Counted from the first letter of the stretch, positions 588 to 9,840 are shown. The stretch: DNA of 64,000 nt from Dictyoglomus turgidum DSM 6724 (GCF_000021645.1 NC_011661.1:218723-282722); one strand, 5' to 3'. Numbers and translations are program-made. Notes: a model not told the origin generated them from the sequence alone.

Positions 588-2303
588 ATGGAAAAAATAT
601 TTATTGTTCCGGAGCCAAAAAGGTTAGAATTTATGGGAAAATGGCTTGAGTTTAAGGGCTTTGAAAACTTTCCAGAATTTTTATCTCAAGAATTTCACAT
701 CCCTAAAGGAAGCTTAAGAATAAGAAAAATTGAAAAAAAAGGAAATGGAATAGAAATCAAAGAAGATGAGGTAATAATATGGGGAGACGAAAATATAGCT
801 TATGCTACTATTCTTCAACTTCTAATGCAAAATCCCAACAAGCTTCCTAAGGTAATAATAGAAGAAGAATTTTCCTTTAAATTTCGTGGCTATCATTTAG
901 ATATTGCCAGGGGTGGAGTTCCTCACTTAAGAGAATTCAAAAGAATCTTAAAGTGGCTTTTTATTCTAAAATACAACTACTTCGCCATTTATTTTGAAGA
1001 TCTCTTTCCTTGGAAAAAATATCCTGAGATAGGGGCCCTAAGGGGAAGACTTACAGAAGAGGAAATAAGAGAAATCATTAACTATGGAAGAAGGTTAAAC
1101 ATAGAAGTATTTCCTTCCCTTGAGCTCTGTGGACATATGGAAAATATATTAGTACTCCCTAATTTTATGAAATTTAGTGAATGGCACAGACCCGATGAAG
1201 GCTGTATAGATGTATCCAATGATGAGGCAAGAAAATTTACCTATGAACTCTTAGAAGAAGTAATAAACTTTTTCCCATCAAAATATGTCCATATAGGTGG
1301 CGATGAAACCTGGGCACTTGGAAGAGGAAGAAGTCTTGACAAAGAAGGAATATTCAAGGGACCAGAGCTTTTTGAGATGTATCACAGAAATTTAATCTAT
1401 AAGGTGAAAGAGAGTGGAAAAATCCCTATGGTATGGGGAGATATGCTAACAGGTATGTATTTAAGAGAAGAGGAAAAAGAAAGATGGAGAATTGTTTTAG
1501 AAAGTAATATTTGGGATGAAACGGTAATAGCAAATTGGGATTATACTCACCTTCCTCAAGACCATTTCCAAAATAAAATAAATATGTTTGGAAAGAGAAA
1601 AGAAAAAGAGCTTGCATGTCCAGGACTTTCCAATTGGAATAGATTTTATCCTAACTTTGACATTGCTCTTACCAATATTACTAACTTCTTGATCCCTGCA
1701 AGAAAAGAGAAACTTCTTGGTTTTCTACTTACTTCTTGGGGAGATGATGGAGCAGAATGTTTATACTCCTTCTTAGATCCTCTTATCCTTGCCACCATGG
1801 AGATCGCAGAGGGTAATGGAAATTGGGAAGAAAAATGGCTTGCACTGAAAAGAGAAGATAAAGAAGTTCTTGAAGTAAGAAAAACTTTAGGGCAAAATGA
1901 TATAGCAGAAACCATTAAGCATGTGTTTCTTGGAGATCAAATATATAGATATGCTACTGAAATATTAAAAGACAAAGAAAGAAAATCCACTGGAGATTTT
2001 TGGGCTGACTATTACTTGGGAATAACAAGTCTTCTTTCTAATAAGGAAAAACTAAAGGATAAATATGAAGAGGTTTTGAATGCCGTCTCTCATGTAAATC
2101 TACCTGAAGATTTATCCCTTATAAGAGATATGCTAAAGATCTCCCTAAATAGAGTTAAGGGAAGATTAAAATTTTCTGATTTTATAAGTTTTGGCAATAA
2201 GTATGCAGAGCTTTGGCTTTCTGAAAGAAAGAAGGAGAATCTTGAAAAGGTAATCAATAAAATCTATGGGGCAGGAGGAAGAGCAGACTTAGAAATCTAT
2301 TAA
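588..2303 (+). CDS. Glycoside hydrolase family 20-like beta-N-acetylhexosaminidase
   Basis: A 571-residue protein with a poorly conserved first ~95 residues (the usual N-terminal GH20b-type domain) and a TIM-barrel catalytic domain from about residue 97 (FRGYHLDIARGG). The GH20 catalytic pair is plain: HIGGDETW at residues 235-242, so D239 polarises the substrate acetamido group and E240 is the acid. There is no signal peptide, so it should act on imported oligosaccharides in the cytoplasm. It faces nagA and a SIS gene across a 3-base gap, which fits release of GlcNAc from chitin-like or glycoconjugate substrates. The ATG at 588 is 13 bases after a GGGGG (570-574). An earlier out-of-frame ATG at 578 gives only a ~22-codon ORF. 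The C-terminal ~170 residues are helical and extend past the barrel. Confidence 0.85.
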   Translation: MEKIFIVPEPKRLEFMGKWLEFKGFENFPEFLSQEFHIPKGSLRIRKIEKKGNGIEIKEDEVIIWGDENIAYATILQLLMQNPNKLPKVIIEEEFSFKFRGYHLDIARGGVPHLREFKRILKWLFILKYNYFAIYFEDLFPWKKYPEIGALRGRLTEEEIREIINYGRRLNIEVFPSLELCGHMENILVLPNFMKFSEWHRPDEGCIDVSNDEARKFTYELLEEVINFFPSKYVHIGGDETWALGRGRSLDKEGIFKGPELFEMYHRNLIYKVKESGKIPMVWGDMLTGMYLREEEKERWRIVLESNIWDETVIANWDYTHLPQDHFQNKINMFGKRKEKELACPGLSNWNRFYPNFDIALTNITNFLIPARKEKLLGFLLTSWGDDGAECLYSFLDPLILATMEIAEGNGNWEEKWLALKREDKEVLEVRKTLGQNDIAETIKHVFLGDQIYRYATEILKDKERKSTGDFWADYYLGITSLLSNKEKLKDKYEEVLNAVSHVNLPEDLSLIRDMLKISLNRVKGRLKFSDFISFGNKYAELWLSERKKENLEKVINKIYGAGGRADLEIY

Positions 2304-2306
2304 AAT

Positions 2307-3449
2307 TTAGGGGGAGAAGACCTTCTTCCCCTCCACCATAGTCATTTTTATATTAAAACCTTCATCAAAAACAGTAATATCAGCATCCTTTCCTACCTCT
2401 ATACTACCTTTCCTATTCTCCAATCCAAGAAGCCTTGCAGGAGAATAGGAAGCCATATAAACAGCATCTATAATATTTACTCCAGCCATCTGTATAATAT
2501 TTCTTATCGCTTTATCCATAGTAAGGGTACTTCCCGCAAGAGAACCAGACTCAAGAACTGCCCTTCCATTCTTAACAATCACCCTTTGATTTGAAAGTCT
2601 ATACTCTCCATCTTCAAGTCCTGTGGCCATTATAGCATCTGTAATAAGCAAAACTTTATACCTCGGCTTCAATTTAACTACCATTTTTAAAATCACATCA
2701 GACAAATGATAACCATCAGCAATAACCTCCACGCTCACATGGTCATTAACCAGGGCGTAGCCGACAATTCCAGGTTCCCTATGATGAAGAGGTCTCATAC
2801 CATTAAAAAGATGAGTAATATGAGAAACTCCATTTAAAGCTGCATCTCTCATTAAATCATAGGAGGCATCAGTATGACCTGCAGAAACAATCACATTTCT
2901 TTCTTTAAGATATTTTATTACTTTAAATTCATCATCTATCTCAGGAGCAATGGTCATAACTCTCAAATAAGGAGAGTATAGTTTCTCTAAAATATTAATA
3001 TCGGGCTTTATAATATACTCTTCAGGTTGGGCTCCTTTATATTTAGAGTTCAAAAAAGGACCTTCTAAGTGTATCCCCAAAGCCTTCCCACCATTTTTCT
3101 GATTCCTTATGTACTTCTCTAACTTTTTAACAGCCTCTCTCATATCCTTTATAGGAGCGGTCACTATGGTAGGAAGAAATCCTACCACTCCTTTTGATGC
3201 TAAAAAAATAGCTATTTTTTCTATCTCTTCATACTCACAATCCAAAAAATCTCCTCCAAAAGCTCCATGGATATGAATATCAATAAAACCAGGAGAGATG
3301 TAAAAATCACTAAAGTCATAATCTATATTATCTATCTTACTTTCTTTTTTTTCCCCAATATAAACTATCTTTCCATTTTCAATCTTCAAAACTCCATCTT
3401 CAAAAATTCTATCCTTTAATATTATTTTTCCCAAAATATTTACTCCCAT
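2307..3449 (-). CDS. nagA: N-acetylglucosamine-6-phosphate deacetylase
   Basis: 380 residues, the usual NagA length, in the amidohydrolase superfamily. The metal-binding H-x-H appears as GFIDIHIHGAFGGDF, then HLEGPFLN (the catalytic-site EGP motif), GHTDAS, HITHLFNGM and the catalytic aspartate in LITDAIMATGL. It converts GlcNAc-6-phosphate to glucosamine-6-phosphate and acetate in the cytoplasm. It lies directly downstream of the SIS gene (1-base gap), so the two share a transcript. It converges on the GH20 gene with a 3-base gap. A GC-rich hairpin inside the last codons (about 2310-2334) may help stop transcription from both sides. Confidence 0.92.
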   Translation of the reverse strand: MGVNILGKIILKDRIFEDGVLKIENGKIVYIGEKKESKIDNIDYDFSDFYISPGFIDIHIHGAFGGDFLDCEYEEIEKIAIFLASKGVVGFLPTIVTAPIKDMREAVKKLEKYIRNQKNGGKALGIHLEGPFLNSKYKGAQPEEYIIKPDINILEKLYSPYLRVMTIAPEIDDEFKVIKYLKERNVIVSAGHTDASYDLMRDAALNGVSHITHLFNGMRPLHHREPGIVGYALVNDHVSVEVIADGYHLSDVILKMVVKLKPRYKVLLITDAIMATGLEDGEYRLSNQRVIVKNGRAVLESGSLAGSTLTMDKAIRNIIQMAGVNIIDAVYMASYSPARLLGLENRKGSIEVGKDADITVFDEGFNIKMTMVEGKKVFSP

Positions 3450-4172
3450 TTAAAACCCCCTAATTTTTTCTTTATAAATGTCTATTAACTTCTTATTAAT
3501 CTCCTTATTTTTCTCATTGATAGGAAGCCTAAAAACAGGAGGGATGATACCTATCTCCTCAATTTTGTAAATTACCTCAACAAGAATATCATTGATTACC
3601 AAAAGAGGGAGTAAAACTCCCAAATTCCCCACTCTCACATCCTTATTTTCCTTTAAAGACAGTAAAAGTTCATCGGAAGGACCAGGAAGTAAAACAGCAA
3701 GATCCACAAGATCCTTTAAATTTTTCTTAGAGGAATGCTTTGAAGGTTTTATTGAATTCTCCCTATTAATAAATCCAATAGTAAAAATCCCCTTTTTCTT
3801 TGCCTCAAGACAAGCATCAATGGCAATAAAATCCCTTCCAGTATAAGAAATTATATAGAGAATATCACTTTCCTTTATATTCTCGTTAGATATCAAGTTT
3901 TTTCCATAGTCTTCAATCTTTTCAAGATAATTAGCCTTATAAATATTTTCAGGATATAAAGTGGAAATATCTAAAATAGGATTTATGCAAGATAAAACTC
4001 CAGGTTTAAAAAATAACTCCATAGGTATAGCATTATAGTGTCCATAACCCAAAATATGTATTATTCCTCCATTCCTAATAACATCAACAGTTTTATCTAT
4101 CACCTTATGAAAACTTTCTTCTTCCTTTTCCAGCTCTTCTAAGAGCACTATCATACTCTTTAGGTATCTCAT
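3450..4172 (-). CDS. SIS-domain phosphosugar-binding protein (UPF0309-like)
   Basis: 240 residues. The N-terminal half reads GGIIHILGYGHYNAIPMELFFKPG, the pattern of the UPF0309 branch of SIS (sugar isomerase) proteins, and ILYIISYTGRDFIAIDACLEAKKKG is the second conserved SIS strand-turn-helix. Related proteins bind or isomerise aldose/ketose phosphates. Co-transcription with nagA suggests an amino-sugar phosphate ligand, but the reaction cannot be read from the sequence. The start codon is only 6 bases downstream of an extended -10 box, so the operon mRNA is probably leaderless. Confidence 0.75.
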   Translation of the reverse strand: MRYLKSMIVLLEELEKEEESFHKVIDKTVDVIRNGGIIHILGYGHYNAIPMELFFKPGVLSCINPILDISTLYPENIYKANYLEKIEDYGKNLISNENIKESDILYIISYTGRDFIAIDACLEAKKKGIFTIGFINRENSIKPSKHSSKKNLKDLVDLAVLLPGPSDELLLSLKENKDVRVGNLGVLLPLLVINDILVEVIYKIEEIGIIPPVFRLPINEKNKEINKKLIDIYKEKIRGF

Positions 4173-4178
4173 AGAATT

Positions 4179-4187
4179 ATTATATCA
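4179..4187 (-). promoter_or_regulatory. Extended -10 promoter of the SIS-nagA operon, leaderless
   Basis: On the minus strand the sequence reads TGATATAAT, a perfect extended -10, ending 6 bases before the ATG at 4172. Transcription should start at or within a base or two of the A of the ATG. The box overlaps the stop codon of the upstream gene (ending at 4180), so this operon has its own promoter. Confidence 0.7.
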
Positions 4188-5826
4188 CCATTTGGTCAAG
4201 TAAATTTATTAACTTTCTTCTTTGGAGTCTTTTATCAAAGTAATAGATAGAAAGAATTAAAGGAGTCTTTTTTACACGGTAATACTTTAAAAATTTTTCT
4301 GGAATACACTTAGATTCAGGAGTTGTTTCCCACTTTAAGTCGTACCTTACATAATTTCTTACAAAAACATCTATCATATTTCTTTCTTTCTCCTTTAAAG
4401 AAATGTATTTATTTATAAACTTCATTCTTTTACCTTTAGGAAGAGTATTGATGAATTTAAGAGCCAAACACTTTCTTGCCTCTACCACAGGATCCGATGA
4501 AAAAATTTTATTTATAAAATCCATAAGGTACAAATCTTTATCCACTTTTTTTAAGAATTCATCAAAATCTTCCCTTATAGCTCTTATTAATTTTTCTAAG
4601 TTCTTATCTCTCTTGAAATAATCCCTATTAATAAGGCTCATATAAGTAGTGACAAAGTTAATTATCCTTTCTTCAAGGAAGAGTTTAATAAAATTTTCTC
4701 TATTTTTCTCAAAATACTCTCTTTTTATTTTTTCCTTTAAAAACTCATTTAGTATGGGAAAGGGAGCCTCAAAAGGATCCACCCCCATATATTTATCTAA
4801 AATCTTCCTTATAGTCATACCTTTTACCCTTAGGGTCCATCCCTTAAGAAGGGTTGAAAGATTTGTCTTAGTAATCTTCAATTCTTCAGAAAGCACACTT
4901 AAATTTTTATCTTTAAAGAGTCTTTTCAAATAATCCCTCAGTTCATAATTGTTCTCATAGATATCTAAATCCAAATTTAATTTTCTTTTTTCAAAAAACT
5001 CTTTAAGTTCCTTATAGTGCTCCTTTGTCCCCCATCCCTTTCCTTCAGGAAGTTTTTCATAAAGATGAAGAATAACTTCTCCCATCTCAAAAATATCACT
5101 CTGCCTTAACTTTCTCTGAATATGGAAAAGGGTATCAAGAGCAAAAAAACCACTCTCCAAGTTTTCCCGGAAATATCCCCAATAATAAACTGCGTCTTTT
5201 GCAAGTTTTAAAGCCAATAAAGGATGTTTATCTTTCAAATACCAAGCTGAATTATTCAAACAATAAATCAAACCCGTAGGATGAGGTATATCTTTTGCTA
5301 TCTTTATGCCCTGAAAATACCCTTTGATTGCTCTTTTTAAATTTCCCCTTTTTGCCTCTTCGTTTGCCCTATTAAAAAGTATAAATAAATAGGTGGACTC
5401 ATCTTCTATATAATCTTTACTCCATAATCTTAACTTTGAAACCCCTCTTTGAGAGAATTTAGTTATAAAATAATCCCAAAGAGTAGGTGCAATAATCTTT
5501 CTTGCAAGAAGAGGGATTTTAAAGAAGTCTTTTCTAAGTTCCTCAAAGATTATATCTGCTGATGGTTCTTTGAGGAATTTTAAAAAAGCCAATTTGTCTG
5601 CTAATAATAAAAAATAAAGAGTTAAATTATTTATTTCCCTCTTTTGAATTCTATCAATTATAGCTAACCCTTTCTCCCAGCTTCCCATCCACTTATACCT
5701 TTGAGCAATAAAATAATAATACCATTCCTCTGGTAACTCTTCTTCTAAAATCAGATTCAAAAATGGCTTAGAAAAGTTACCATATTTAAATAAAATATAG
5801 GCAATGACAGGCACCTTTTTATACAT
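4180..5826 (-). CDS. Helical-repeat (TPR-like) protein with internal helix-turn-helix, putative regulator
   Basis: 548 residues, no signal peptide or membrane segment. The first ~280 residues look like degenerate TPR/alpha-solenoid repeats (for example a segment containing RANEEAKRGNLKRAIKGYF, and later NNSAWYLKDKHPLLALKLAKDA). At about residues 306-345 there is an HTH-like stretch: LSVLSEELKITKTNLSTLL followed by a basic linker. The remainder is highly charged and helical. I do not recognise a named family. TPR plus HTH is the architecture of peptide-sensing RRNPP regulators, although there the HTH is N-terminal. The gene is divergent from a gene for a 46-residue secreted peptide (6015-6155). 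Confidence 0.6.
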   Translation of the reverse strand: MYKKVPVIAYILFKYGNFSKPFLNLILEEELPEEWYYYFIAQRYKWMGSWEKGLAIIDRIQKREINNLTLYFLLLADKLAFLKFLKEPSADIIFEELRKDFFKIPLLARKIIAPTLWDYFITKFSQRGVSKLRLWSKDYIEDESTYLFILFNRANEEAKRGNLKRAIKGYFQGIKIAKDIPHPTGLIYCLNNSAWYLKDKHPLLALKLAKDAVYYWGYFRENLESGFFALDTLFHIQRKLRQSDIFEMGEVILHLYEKLPEGKGWGTKEHYKELKEFFEKRKLNLDLDIYENNYELRDYLKRLFKDKNLSVLSEELKITKTNLSTLLKGWTLRVKGMTIRKILDKYMGVDPFEAPFPILNEFLKEKIKREYFEKNRENFIKLFLEERIINFVTTYMSLINRDYFKRDKNLEKLIRAIREDFDEFLKKVDKDLYLMDFINKIFSSDPVVEARKCLALKFINTLPKGKRMKFINKYISLKEKERNMIDVFVRNYVRYDLKWETTPESKCIPEKFLKYYRVKKTPLILSIYYFDKRLQRRKLINLLDQMVI

Positions 5827-5837
5827 AATTTAAATTT

Positions 5838-5843
5838 ATTATA
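5838..5843 (-). promoter_or_regulatory. -10 box of the helical-repeat regulator gene
   Basis: Minus-strand TATAAT ending 11 bases before the ATG at 5826. The expected transcription start is about 5 bases upstream of the start codon, with no room for a Shine-Dalgarno sequence. Confidence 0.5.
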
Positions 5844-5944
5844 TCAGAAATAACTGTAAAAACCTCTAAATCCTAATTTTCTCTTTATAGACATTTTTAG
5901 CTGCTACAAACACTTTAAAAATAAAGATTTTTAAAGACTACATG

Positions 5945-5974
5945 ATTTGATTATCAAATGTAATCTTTTATATT
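5945..5974 (+). promoter_or_regulatory. Promoter with overlapping 15-bp palindrome, small peptide gene
   Basis: TTGATT (5947-5952) and TATATT (5969-5974) are separated by 16 bases, a good vegetative promoter. A perfect palindrome, ATTTGAT-T-ATCAAAT (5945-5959), covers the -35 and the start of the spacer, where a repressor would block polymerase. The palindrome sits in the 188-base divergent intergenic region shared with the helical-repeat regulator gene. Confidence 0.55.
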
Positions 5975-6014
5975 AAAAATCAAAAGAACATTTGGAAGAG
6001 GAGGTAGCTAAAAA

Positions 6015-6155
6015 ATGAAGAAGATAATTGCAATTGTTATAATAGCTCTTTTAACCTTATTAAATATTGTGTTAGCAGATGAAGCTCCTGGTGGAAATCA
6101 GACATTTAGCTCTAAACCCCCAATAGAAGTTGTATTAGAGGTATCTTCCAAGTAA
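6015..6155 (+). CDS. Small secreted peptide, 46 residues
   Basis: ATG at 6015 is preceded by a strong Shine-Dalgarno sequence, GAGGAGG (5998-6004). The product begins with a signal-peptide-like segment (MKKIIAIVIIALL..., cleavage expected after ...NIVLA at residue 21). A mature peptide of about 25 residues follows: DEAPGGNQTFSS then KPPIEVVLEVSSK. The gene has its own promoter upstream and a strong intrinsic terminator 10 bases after its stop, so it is a complete, separately controlled unit. I do not recognise the family. It could be a secreted signal, a small envelope protein or a bacteriocin-like peptide; no cysteines are present. Confidence 0.7.
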   Translation: MKKIIAIVIIALLTLLNIVLADEAPGGNQTFSSKPPIEVVLEVSSK

Positions 6156-6165
6156 GCTTGAGGGG

Positions 6166-6200
6166 GGAGGGGGCCCGAAGAAGGGTTCCTCTCCTTTTTT
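6166..6200 (+). terminator. Intrinsic terminator after the small peptide gene
   Basis: GGAGGGGGCCC (6166-6176) pairs with GGGTTCCTCTCC (6183-6194) through G-C and G-U pairs with one bulge, across a GAAGAA loop, and is followed by T6. It is one of the strongest terminators in the window, and it isolates the peptide gene from the HD-GYP gene downstream. Confidence 0.85.
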
Positions 6201-6205
6201 ATTTT

Positions 6206-6214
6206 TGTTAAAAT
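6206..6214 (+). promoter_or_regulatory. Extended -10 promoter of the SBP/HD-GYP gene, leaderless
   Basis: TGTTAAAAT ends 7 bases before the ATG at 6222. No Shine-Dalgarno sequence is present between them, so the transcript should start at or very near the start codon. Confidence 0.6.
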
Positions 6215-6221
6215 AAAATTC

Positions 6222-8534
6222 ATGAAGAAACTATTTTCAATAATATTAATAATAATTCTAATTACACCCTTCTCCTTAGGTGAAAAGAAAGAAAGCCTTA
6301 CTTTTGCAGGCGATTTTAACTTACCTCCTATAGAGTATTTGGATTCGCAGGGAAATCCTAAAGGTTTTGCAGTGGATATTGTTAATGAACTTTCCAAAAA
6401 AATAAATAAAACCATTGAGATAAAGCTTGTCCCATGGGAAAAAGCAGTAGAGCTCTTAAACACAGGTAAAGTAGACGGAATAGAATTTATGAGAATCACA
6501 GAAGAAAGAAAGAAGAGATATGATTTTGTACCATACTTAGAAAGCTTTAGTGTAATTATCGTACCCATTGGTTCCCCCATAAATAATTTTATGGACCTAA
6601 AGAAGAAAAAAGTAGGAGTATTTAACCTTGATGTGGCCCATATCTTCTTAAAAGATATTACTCAAACTATCCCTTATGAGTCATCAAAAGACGTACTTTT
6701 AGGAATTTTAAGGAAAGATGTAGATGCTGGAGTCATTAACTATTATGCAGCTAAATGGCTTATTACTCAAAATAACTGGAACGATAAACTTAAAATCCTC
6801 CCTGACAAATTATTTACCAATTACTCTGGAATTGCTCTTCCTAAAGGAAGCCCATATTTCCTAACCATTAAAAAGGCAATTGATGAGATAATAAAATCCC
6901 CAAAGTACATTGACCTTTTGCAAAAATGGTTTGGCGAAGAAATTCTTTTAAGACTTGAAATAAAGAAGAAAGAAAGTCAAACTCAAGGGCTTTTAATTCT
7001 TTTTTCTCTTTTAGCTTTTGTCTTCCTTTGGATCCTTGGAAGTAGAAGATATTTAAAGAAAGAGGTTGAAAGACAAACTAAAGAGATAAGAACACTTCTT
7101 GAAGAAAATAAAAGAAAGTATGAAGAATTGATTATAGGGTATGAATTCTTGAGAGATATATCTAACAAGAATATTGAGGATGTAGAGAGAATTTTTTATG
7201 AAAAATTAAAGGATCTTTTTCCTGAAAATGATATAAAAATATTAAAAAGATTAAACAATGAATTTCTGACTTTATACCCTAAGCAAGATTCTCTAAAAAT
7301 AAAAATTGAAGACTTAGAAAAGTCAACTCCAAATAATGTATATACTATTATAGAAAACAAAATTCAATATGCTATCTGTTATGAGAAAGAAATTCCCCAA
7401 GGAATTTTTGACCTCCTCTTAGAAGAGTTTAAGCATACTGTTGAAGATATAAACCTAAAAAAGAGGTTAAAGAAAGAAAAGGAAATATCAGAAATCATTG
7501 ATCTCTTCTCAGAGAAAATTGAAAAAAACCTATTCCTTGAAAGCATATTAAGAAGAACTTTAAACATATTAGATGCTGACGCAGGATCAATTATGGCTTA
7601 TGATGAGGATGAAAATACTCTAAAAATCTTTGCAAGTTGTGGGATTCCTAAGGAAGTAGTAGAAAATACAGTACTAAGAATGGGAGAGGGTATAGCTGGT
7701 TGGGTAGCCCAACATAGAGAGCCTTTAATCCTTGAGGACGCTTACAAAGATAGCAGATTCTTAATAATTGAACCTCGGTTTAATATAAAATCCTCCATAT
7801 GTTATCCATTAATTCACAATGACAAATTGGTAGGAGTTTTAAATATAAACAGTCTAAGAGAATCTAAAAAATTTGATCAAAGGGATTTAGAAATTGTAGA
7901 AAAAATAAGTCCTGTTCTTTCTTCTTTACTTTATAAAGAAGATTTAGAAAACAGAATATATAGATTAAACAGAGAATCATTAATTGTACTTGTAGAGATG
8001 ATTGACGCAAGAGATCCCTACACAGGAGGACATTCCCGAGAAGTGAGAAATATTGCTGTAAACTTTGGGAAATACATAGGTTTAAATGATGAAGAACTAA
8101 GAATATTAGAGTATGCTGGACATCTACATGATATTGGTAAAATAAAAGTTCCTGATTATATTTTGAAAAAACCTGGAAAACTTTCCGATGAAGAGTATAT
8201 GATTATGAAAATGCATCCCGTATGGGGAGAAGAGATTCTTCAAAACGTCTCTGCCTTTAGAGAGATTGGAAAGCTAATAAGACATCACCATGAAAGATGG
8301 GATGGAAAAGGGTATCCTGATGGAATTTCAGGAGAAGATATACCTTTTTATTCCCGAATTCTTACCCTTGCTGATAGTTTTCAAGCTATGACTGCTTATA
8401 GACCTTATAAAAAGAGGTTAACTATTGATGAGGCTATAGAAGAGATAAAAAGATGTAAAGGTTCCCAGTTTGATCCATACCTTTCTGATTATTTTATTGA
8501 GATGATCTTAATGAGCAAAGTAAGATTTAGCTAA
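6222..8534 (+). CDS. Membrane sensor: periplasmic solute-binding domain - GAF - HD-GYP phosphodiesterase
   Basis: 770 residues. A signal segment (residues 1-20) is followed by a family 3 solute-binding domain to about residue 245 (LPPIEYLDSQGNPKGFAVDI, then VDGIEFMRITEERKKRYDF). Next come one transmembrane helix (~256-275), a coiled-coil linker, a GAF domain (~430-565, containing LDADAGSIMAYDED and RMGEGIAGWVAQ) and a C-terminal HD-GYP domain. The HD-GYP metal and signature residues are intact: HLHDIGKIKVPDYIL and HHHERWDGKGYPDG. HD-GYP enzymes hydrolyse cyclic di-GMP. The layout suggests that an external amino-acid-like ligand controls second-messenger breakdown. The start is leaderless, and the last 8 bases overlap the opposing gene. 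Confidence 0.88.
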   Translation: MKKLFSIILIIILITPFSLGEKKESLTFAGDFNLPPIEYLDSQGNPKGFAVDIVNELSKKINKTIEIKLVPWEKAVELLNTGKVDGIEFMRITEERKKRYDFVPYLESFSVIIVPIGSPINNFMDLKKKKVGVFNLDVAHIFLKDITQTIPYESSKDVLLGILRKDVDAGVINYYAAKWLITQNNWNDKLKILPDKLFTNYSGIALPKGSPYFLTIKKAIDEIIKSPKYIDLLQKWFGEEILLRLEIKKKESQTQGLLILFSLLAFVFLWILGSRRYLKKEVERQTKEIRTLLEENKRKYEELIIGYEFLRDISNKNIEDVERIFYEKLKDLFPENDIKILKRLNNEFLTLYPKQDSLKIKIEDLEKSTPNNVYTIIENKIQYAICYEKEIPQGIFDLLLEEFKHTVEDINLKKRLKKEKEISEIIDLFSEKIEKNLFLESILRRTLNILDADAGSIMAYDEDENTLKIFASCGIPKEVVENTVLRMGEGIAGWVAQHREPLILEDAYKDSRFLIIEPRFNIKSSICYPLIHNDKLVGVLNINSLRESKKFDQRDLEIVEKISPVLSSLLYKEDLENRIYRLNRESLIVLVEMIDARDPYTGGHSREVRNIAVNFGKYIGLNDEELRILEYAGHLHDIGKIKVPDYILKKPGKLSDEEYMIMKMHPVWGEEILQNVSAFREIGKLIRHHHERWDGKGYPDGISGEDIPFYSRILTLADSFQAMTAYRPYKKRLTIDEAIEEIKRCKGSQFDPYLSDYFIEMILMSKVRFS

Positions 8535-9840
8535 GATTATTCCACCACTCCTTTATTAAATCTTTTAAAGTCTTCTCTCCATAGTCTTCATACTCATAAA
8601 AAATCCTTATAGTCTTCTTTTTAATATTAATTACCCTTCTCAAATCAATAGGAGTTCCAATTATCACATACTCACCATCAAATTTGTTAATGGTCTCCTC
8701 AAGTTCCTTAAGTTGTTCCTTACTATAACCAAGAGCAGGAAGAACTTCCCTTAGGTGAGTATACTTCTCATAGGCTTCTTTTATACTTCCTACGGCATAA
8801 TCCCTTGGATTCACAATTATAGCTCCCTTCTCCCTTGCAAAGATATAACCCGCTCCAAAAGGCATCTCTCCATGAGTCACCGTAGGTCCATCTTCCACTA
8901 CAAGAACCTTTTTACCTTTAATATCCTCTTCTTTTTCTGCCCTAATAGGTGATTTAGCATAAATTATCTGGCACTTCTTATTTCTTTTTCTTACATTCTC
9001 CACTACTTCTTGAACTTTATTCTTTGGTGCAGTATCAACCTTATTTACCACAACCACATTTGCAAGGATCAAATTTATTTCTCCAGGATAATAAGAAAGT
9101 TCATGTCCAGACCTATAGGGATCCACTACGGTAATATAAAGATCAGGTCTATAAAATGGAAAATCATTATTTCCTCCATCCCAGACAATTACATCAGCTT
9201 CACTTTCAGCCTCCTTTAATATCTCTTTGTAGTCCACTCCTGCATAGACTATAGCTTTTTGCCTTATATGAGGCTCATACTCTTCTCTCTCTTCAATGGT
9301 ACATTCATGAGTATCAAGATCTTCCATTTTCTCAAACCTCTGAACTTTCTGCCTCAAAAAATCCCCATAGGGCATAGGATGTCTAACTACTACAGTTTTA
9401 AGCCCCATATCTCTTAACACTCTCACCACATACCTTGTGGTCTGACTTTTTCCAGAACCTGTTCTCACCGCACATATTGCCACTACAGGTTTTTTGCTTT
9501 TTAACATAGTCTCTGTACCCAACAATCTAAAATCTACTCCCAAAGAGAGTACGAGACTCGCCCTTTGCATCACATAATTATAAGAGACATCGCTATAGGA
9601 AAATACCACTTCATCTACTTCATATCTCTTAATTAATTCGGGAAGCTCTTCCTCAGGAAATATGGGAATTCCATCAGGATAAAGATCTCCCGCAAGATCC
9701 TTTGGGTAAATTCTATTCTCAATACCAGGAATTTGAGTAGCAGTAAAGGCAACCACTTTATATTGAGGATTATCTTTAAAAATCACATTAAAATTATGAA
9801 AATCCCTACCTCCAGCCCCCATAATTATAACCTTTTTCAT
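8527..9840 (-). CDS. Cyclic 2,3-diphosphoglycerate synthetase-like P-loop protein
   Basis: 437 residues. An N-terminal Rossmann-like segment (IMGAGGRDFHNFNV) is followed at about residue 120 by a P-loop, AVRTGSGKSQTTR, and later nucleotide-binding strands (VIVWDGGNNDFPFY, VVVNKVD). This is the pattern of proteins annotated as cyclic 2,3-diphosphoglycerate synthetase-like, which occur in many bacteria that are not known to make that solute. Its gene overlaps the racemase gene by 4 bases (translational coupling) in a three-gene operon with a transporter. That context points to an amino-acid-related role rather than a methanogen-type thermolyte. The true substrate is not evident. Confidence 0.75.
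   Translation of the reverse strand: MKKVIIMGAGGRDFHNFNVIFKDNPQYKVVAFTATQIPGIENRIYPKDLAGDLYPDGIPIFPEEELPELIKRYEVDEVVFSYSDVSYNYVMQRASLVLSLGVDFRLLGTETMLKSKKPVVAICAVRTGSGKSQTTRYVVRVLRDMGLKTVVVRHPMPYGDFLRQKVQRFEKMEDLDTHECTIEEREEYEPHIRQKAIVYAGVDYKEILKEAESEADVIVWDGGNNDFPFYRPDLYITVVDPYRSGHELSYYPGEINLILANVVVVNKVDTAPKNKVQEVVENVRKRNKKCQIIYAKSPIRAEKEEDIKGKKVLVVEDGPTVTHGEMPFGAGYIFAREKGAIIVNPRDYAVGSIKEAYEKYTHLREVLPALGYSKEQLKELEETINKFDGEYVIIGTPIDLRRVINIKKKTIRIFYEYEDYGEKTLKDLIKEWWNNLS

Follow-up and report, generated by a model that had tools for sequence, protein, structure and literature searches.

The window, by which we mean the whole 64,000-nucleotide stretch of Dictyoglomus turgidum DSM 6724 that was analysed, genome bases 218723-282722, carries between positions 4180 and 6155 a divergent gene pair, in which a helical-repeat regulator on the minus strand faces a 46-residue peptide with a predicted signal sequence on the plus strand. 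A preliminary description had read the two as a possible peptide-signalling module, and both reading frames are present as it gave them (4180-5826, minus; 6015-6155, plus). The features of the locus, with the evidence for each, are as follows.

2307-3449, minus: amidohydrolase, NagA-like by context, next in the run after the SIS gene (Pfam; kept in genomes G003, G005 and G001)
3450-4172, minus: SIS-domain sugar isomerase, 7 bp after the regulator gene and probably co-transcribed with it (ORF, Pfam; order kept in G003)
4180-5826, minus: TPR and central Cro/C1-HTH regulator of 548 aa, putative peptide receptor (ORF, AlphaFold2 model, family search, Pfam on the family)
4183-4761, minus: C-terminal all-helical domain of the regulator, residues 356-548 (model; conserved in the family)
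4789-4947, minus: central helix-turn-helix of Cro/C1 type, residues 294-346 (model helices, family-level HTH_26/HTH_3 matches, alignment)
4963-5826, minus: N-terminal TPR-like helical-repeat domain, residues 1-288, with a putative peptide groove (model, VIA)
5838-5843, minus: conserved -10-like TATAAT of the regulator gene (kept in four Dictyoglomota intergenic regions)
5945-5959, no strand assigned: palindrome resembling an operator, ATTTGATTATCAAAT, one form of the family box TTGANNN[TC]CA, over the -35 (conservation, family box)
5947-5974, plus: peptide promoter, -35 TTGATT, 16-nt spacer, -10 TATATT (promoter reading; 16-nt spacing in most loci)
5998-6004, plus: ribosome-binding site GAGGAGG (direct reading)
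6015-6155, plus: gene of the 46-aa propeptide (ORF, orthologues, association test, pN/pS)
6015-6077, plus: predicted Sec signal peptide, residues 1-21, cleavage between LA and DEAP (hydrophobicity rule; conserved site between FA and D in the family)
6078-6152, plus: predicted secreted part DEAPGGNQTFSSKPPIEVVLEVSSK with the family core GNQTxS (propeptide comparison)
about 6159-6200, plus: intrinsic terminator between the peptide and HD-GYP genes, a possible attenuator (folding energy; four Dictyoglomota loci)
6222-8534, plus: SBP_bac_3-GAF-HD-GYP protein of c-di-GMP phosphodiesterase type, probable output gene (Pfam; gene order in 8 loci)

On the regulator side, the stretch 588-4172 adds a GH20 hexosaminidase to the NagA-like amidohydrolase and the SIS isomerase, an order that is also kept in G003.

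The propeptide gene and its control region

The propeptide gene has the -35/-10 pair and the GAGGAGG ribosome-binding site that had been claimed for it, and on the evidence of a pooled pN/pS of about 0.46 between orthologues its frame is coding and under purifying selection, and the ratio exceeds 1 in two close pairs of propeptides. The claimed signal peptide is likewise upheld by a rule-based reading, made without SignalP, that combines hydrophobicity with a conserved cleavage site; export and cleavage themselves are inferred, without data. Propeptides of the family (35-90 aa) have a K/R n-region and a hydrophobic core, and share a signal-peptidase I site, mostly between FA and D, and after it a core near D-x4-[DG]N[QEK]T-x-S, as in DEAPGGNQTFSS (window), DPAPDDNKTNS (G197) and DKVKTDNETHSW (Thermotoga maritima). 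This pattern is far from random, as 26 of 46 distinct mature parts have [ND]xT where it is expected, while shuffling gives 6.8, with 0 of 2000 shuffles as high. Three propeptides (L077, L112 and L124) hold the putative pheromone twice, as DPPDGEVVDGV or DPPD(I/V)DNLES, and their receptors form one clade in the tree. Tandem pheromone copies are known in RRNPPA systems of Bacillota (PMC11343458).

The terminator behind the peptide gene is as strong as had been proposed (hairpin of -25.4 kcal/mol, a stability reached by 5 of 200 shuffles), and it is kept after the peptide in the four intact Dictyoglomota loci and lost in G004; Rfam gave no match at window positions 3000-9000. Such a terminator 3' of the peptide would allow a surplus of peptide over the downstream enzyme. 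The SBP-GAF-HD-GYP gene begins without a clear ribosome-binding site, only about 20 bases past the terminator's T-run (window 6190-6225), and its expression may therefore depend on terminator read-through.

The perfect 15-bp palindrome over the -35 (ATTTGAT-T-ATCAAAT, two 7-bp arms flanking one base) requires more care. Taken alone it was rejected as evidence, as 62 of 500 shuffles of the AT-rich intergenic region give a 7-bp arm with a gap of 0-1. That the palindrome is real follows instead from conservation, because it lies at the same position in all four Dictyoglomota loci and is an instance of a box, TTGA-NNN-[TC]CA, common to Thermotogota; the full form is found in each of the four Dictyoglomota loci and, among Thermotogota, in G197. 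In the peptide promoter this box makes up the -35 region, and in most loci the -10 is set off by a 16-nt spacer. Of 48 loci, 32 have the box no more than 140 nt from the peptide start, whereas 200 shuffles gave a mean of 0.72 and a maximum of 4. A genome-wide search for a regulon with the exact palindrome gave 10 matches against 2 for the reversed control, and among the plus-orientation sites inspected none but the window's own was intergenic. A divergent Cro/C1 regulator with a dyad on the -35 of its partner's promoter is the usual layout of direct control. By analogy with this layout, the regulator may be supposed to control the peptide promoter directly through the box; the sign of that regulation is inferred, and there are no binding data.

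Architecture of the regulator

TPR-like repeats and an internal HTH had been ascribed to the regulator, and both are borne out by prediction. In the AlphaFold2 model (pLDDT 86) the whole structure is helical, and the HTH, at about residues 294-346, separates the N-terminal repeats from a helical domain at the C-terminus. In Pfam the window protein itself reaches TPR only at E=0.12, and its relatives are more informative, with TPR_12 matched by 10 of 26 members (9.8e-10) and the Cro/C1 domain HTH_26 by 14 of 26 (4.5e-7). Residues N191 and W195 of the N-terminal domain are invariant across the family alignment.

How far this fold points to known peptide receptors is less certain. In VIA, the N-terminal part is best matched by Rap with its peptide (Z 14.8) and then by NprR with NprX (Z 13.4), and other TPR proteins are close behind; because these score nearly as high, kinship with RRNPP receptors is compatible with the matches and is not proven by them. 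Values of Z near 14 are attainable by unrelated helical repeats, and the Rap and NprR rows are suggestive, not decisive. Foldseek of the model against PDB and viral models found nothing at E < 0.001 (best PDB match E 0.03), phmmer of the window regulator against PDB gave no match, and a PDB sequence search of the family returned no RRNPP chain. None of the RRNPP family models, nor any Rgg model, was matched by the 26 family members in Pfam and NCBIfam, which supports the earlier suggestion that the family is a separate one, its HTH being central.

Several family members have little or no HTH in the alignment listing, as does Rap of Bacillota. Three Dictyoglomus paralogues (L022:7778-9229, L023:7209-8732 and L024:10613-12124) lack the central HTH and keep both helical parts, and two of these still have the TTGANNNTCA box upstream. 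By analogy with Rap, such paralogues may act without DNA binding.

Conservation, loss and spread of the pair

The pair is conserved beyond the species. Orthologues in G003 (which we take to be D. thermophilum), G002 and G005, the last of another genus, are 68, 63 and 45% identical for the regulator and 70, 55 and 44% for the peptide, and the order of regulator, divergent peptide and SBP-GAF-HD-GYP gene behind it is the same in these three genomes and in the window genome (G000). Loss of the regulator goes with a broken or missing peptide gene. A search of the whole G004 genome found no regulator, and there the peptide persists as a relic (L027:7495-7627), an open frame containing ALADPSNSDNQISSLQPPVVVEKTIE that lacks a start codon, a ribosome-binding site and a terminator; the HD-GYP gene next to it is intact. 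G006 retains the regulator only as fragments, the peptide gene was not found there and the HD-GYP gene is N-terminally short. The two genes have decayed together in both genomes.

Beyond Dictyoglomota, a profile built from eight regulators and searched against about 90 other genera found relatives in one of them; a second, weak match, in G036, proved to be large TPR-type proteins. The family is present in 60 of 103 Thermotogota genomes, among them that of T. maritima (G187, identified as strain MSB8 because its ThyX is identical to the PDB entries named TM0449). Members mostly measure 480-600 aa, and with up to 18 matches per genome the family is a large one in these anaerobic thermophiles. 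Thermotogota supplied the only matches at 1e-8 outside Dictyoglomota among 386 genomes, in which no third phylum was found at that threshold and other phyla were thinly sampled. A further scan of a sequence collection with the family alignment matched only two Dictyoglomus MAG contigs.

Association with a small secreted ORF was scored by a strict filter (a divergent ORF of 28-90 aa, starting within 500 bp, with a ribosome-binding site and a signal-peptide-like N-terminus) on 75 regulators that had 250 bp or more of sequence before them and on 435 other genes of the same contigs. Such an ORF faces 48 of the 75 regulators and 10 of the 435 control genes, none of the latter ORFs being family-like, and 16 of 29 regulators after thinning to receptors less than 50% identical (p about 1e-15). 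The 27 regulators without a peptide under this filter count against a signalling reading; 17 of them have the box upstream, the HTH-less Dictyoglomus paralogues included, and some, such as L094 and L124, do have a peptide that the filter missed. Homologues that never adjoin a small ORF, a predicted structure without TPR fold or HTH, and a peptide not conserved in the sister species had each been named as observations that would refute the module. None of the three was made, and we regard the gene pair and its family as real, conserved and apparently undescribed.

The evolution of peptide and receptor can also be compared. Divergence of the receptors correlates with that of the mature peptides (Mantel r=0.20, 10/2000), though only among close relatives, and no covariation was found at long distance (r=0.05 for pairs below 50% identity). 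The case for receptor-peptide co-evolution is therefore limited, since divergences are uncorrelated across distant pairs.

In Dictyoglomota the regulator lies in a run with the SIS and NagA-like genes, as if tied to amino-sugar metabolism. From this one might suspect a Cro/C1 stress or growth-phase regulator whose TPR repeats serve protein interaction, with the small ORF encoding a housekeeping membrane or periplasmic protein. We hold this to be most improbable, as the SIS and NagA neighbours are not a recurrent feature in Thermotogota, where peptide and box recur, and the mature parts vary too much to suit a fixed structural role.

Adjoining operons and the case for peptide signalling

What stands behind the peptide gene differs between the phyla. 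At the window locus there is no radical-SAM RiPP operon, and an HD-GYP gene follows instead, an arrangement seen in 8 of 63 loci (three Dictyoglomota, five Thermotogota). In Thermotogota, RiPP and exporter operons lie on the peptide side with the peptide at the operon head; over the family, 26 of 63 loci have radical SAM/SPASM RiPP maturases there, compared with 9 of 67 for the opposite side.

In Dictyoglomota the SBP-GAF-HD-GYP gene always comes immediately after the peptide, and periplasmic SBP_bac_3 domains are known as a family to bind small ligands. The SBP_bac_3 domain could thus sense the peptide outside the membrane and change c-di-GMP levels, with the regulator merely setting the expression of both. 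This seems to us very unlikely: most Thermotogota pairs do not adjoin an HD-GYP gene, the SBP-HD-GYP gene of G004 is intact despite a broken peptide gene and no regulator, and proteins of the SBP_bac_3 family usually bind single amino acids.

The RiPP operons raise a further alternative, namely that the regulator does control the peptide, which is an effector (a bacteriocin or an envelope peptide) and not a ligand, while the TPR part senses a partner protein or metabolite. The peptide is indeed co-oriented with RiPP and exporter operons, the diversification of close pairs would suit bacteriocins as well, and receptor-peptide covariation is weak at distance. Yet the RiPP operons have a precursor of their own beside the peptide (T. 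maritima 1335354-1335449), the peptide also occurs without RiPP genes after it, at the HD-GYP loci, and both the tandem-repeat propeptides and the common acidic/NxT core resemble signals. An effector role is unlikely, in our judgement.

We postulate instead, and think it probable, that the secreted peptide and the cytoplasmic TPR/HTH receptor form a pair that works like RRNPP quorum sensing, as the preliminary description had proposed; a signalling function is likely but unproven, and binding, re-import and response to density are inferred, without data. On this hypothesis the 46-aa propeptide would be exported by Sec and cut after LA, leaving a fragment that starts DEAPGGNQTFSS and might be trimmed further. 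The fragment or trimmed piece would re-enter through an oligopeptide ABC importer (SBP_bac_5 system; Pfam finds 11 SBP_bac_5 importer proteins in the D. turgidum genome, their import function being inferred) and bind in the TPR groove of the divergently encoded regulator. The central Cro/C1 HTH of this protein would occupy the TTGANNNTCA box, which lies over the -35 of the peptide gene. Peptide binding would change this occupancy and switch the peptide gene and the operon downstream, the peptide amplifying its own gene together with what lies behind it: the c-di-GMP phosphodiesterase gene in Dictyoglomus and mostly radical-SAM RiPP operons with exporters in Thermotogota.

The likeness to RRNPP systems (Rap-Phr, NprR-NprX, PlcR-PapR, Rgg-SHP, AimR) lies in a small secreted propeptide beside a TPR receptor, a Cro/C1-type HTH, a Sec-type signal, neighbouring genes that are often divergent, propeptides that in some cases hold the pheromone in tandem, and links to biosynthetic gene clusters (PMC10075063, PMC11343458). 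Of the published five-part signature, which includes a propeptide of 10-100 aa (PMC10075063), propeptide size (46 aa), Sec signal (rule-based) and gene adjacency (48/75 against 10/435) are met, and a TPR fold is supported in the window regulator and its relatives, peptide binding being inferred. The receptor is slightly too long for the signature, with 548 aa (family mostly 480-600 aa) and not about 250-500. Its HTH lies at residues 294-346, between the TPR-like part and the helical domain, whereas RRNPPA receptors have theirs at the N-terminus (PMC12700828). The hosts, moreover, are diderm and not Bacillota. Because the HTH is central and no RRNPP model is matched, we describe the pair as working like RRNPP systems and do not count it as a member. 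Rgg/SHP RaS-RiPP loci of streptococci are comparable in placing a peptide-receptor pair beside a radical-SAM RiPP operon (PMC13361665, PMC8092268), and a pair divergent to such an operon is met in the family (26/63), not at the window locus. They differ in receptor architecture (our receptors are not of the Rgg family), in having an SHP and not a Sec-type propeptide, and in phylum.

The loci of T. maritima bring the RiPP connection into focus. In its genome, 1333310-1340379 holds, in order, regulator, propeptide, a 31-aa Cys peptide, radical SAM and ABC transporter genes, and the genome has a second and a third pair.

1333310-1334917, minus: regulator of the first pair (gene order reading)
1335104-1335277, plus: propeptide of the first pair, MKIVRRIILT..PSPSDDYQTTV.. 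(gene order reading)
1335354-1335449: 31-aa ORF MQKMPKPVVPNDYLNPGKGCGGAGLVCGWCG, after the propeptide and before the radical SAM gene
1340873-1342829: second regulator-peptide pair
1350943-1352857: third regulator-peptide pair

The 31-aa gene is very probably TM1316, since position, length and neighbours agree, and the whole locus very probably the TM1316 locus. TM1316 is among the most highly transcribed T. maritima genes in stationary phase. Stationary phase and nutrient levels are reported to trigger the locus (Frock et al., 2013, doi 10.1128/AEM.01627-13); that work appears to concern the Cys-rich RiPP-like peptide, and the propeptide/TPR-HTH pair is a separate element upstream. Density-dependent EPS with a short peptide candidate is an earlier peptide-signalling proposal in the same organism (Johnson et al., 2005, cited in PMC4187201), with no TPR/HTH receptor family proposed as far as that indirect account goes. 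The surveys of RRNPP-type signalling that we consulted cover Gram-positive bacteria only (PMC10075063, PMC9765709, PMC12700828), and in the open-licence literature we found no paper linking RRNPP with Thermotoga, or Thermotogae with a pheromone and TPR, and no Dictyoglomus paper on a peptide/TPR-HTH pair.

The recurrence of the same pairing and the same DNA switch in many thermophilic bacteria suggests that cells communicate by a kind of peptide system so far described only in Gram-positive bacteria. With some reserve, we lean towards the wider view that quorum sensing by cytoplasmic peptide receptors is not confined to Bacillota and is found in two diderm thermophile phyla, Dictyoglomota and Thermotogota, with a TPR - HTH - helical receptor, a single conserved operator over the -35, pheromones specific to each paralogue (some in tandem), and RiPP synthesis and c-di-GMP turnover as outputs, control of the TM1316 locus included. 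If true, this would extend peptide-receptor signalling to diderm phyla, bear on the origin of such signalling, and provide a testable regulator for RiPP clusters with unknown products, the stationary-phase locus of T. maritima among them. The conserved box and the predicted pheromones make bench tests possible at once.

Several smaller observations concern these neighbourhoods. In D. thermophilum (L024), a secreted 43-aa peptide (2209-2340, minus) facing a regulator fragment (2560-2970, plus) is followed by a Cys-rich RiPP-like precursor, MPEPQIIGVEKNWCAGCTGCGFCRWCPGK.. (1985-2122, minus), and a radical SAM/PqqD-like protein (519-1916, minus). The third T. maritima pair (1350943-1356951, L085) faces a B12-binding radical SAM protein (TIGR03960-like) and a 655-aa protein without family matches. 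HicA/HicB-like ORFs stand directly behind two T. maritima regulators (1332391-1332998 and 1340463-1340860, both in L084), and a HicAB pair has been ascribed to the TM1316 paper (listed in PMC11594946). Finally, three more Cys-rich ORFs of MEFLN type with strong ribosome-binding sites (1342934-1346273, L084) surround two radical SAM genes that follow the second pair in tandem, and these ORFs are likely undescribed RiPP precursors.
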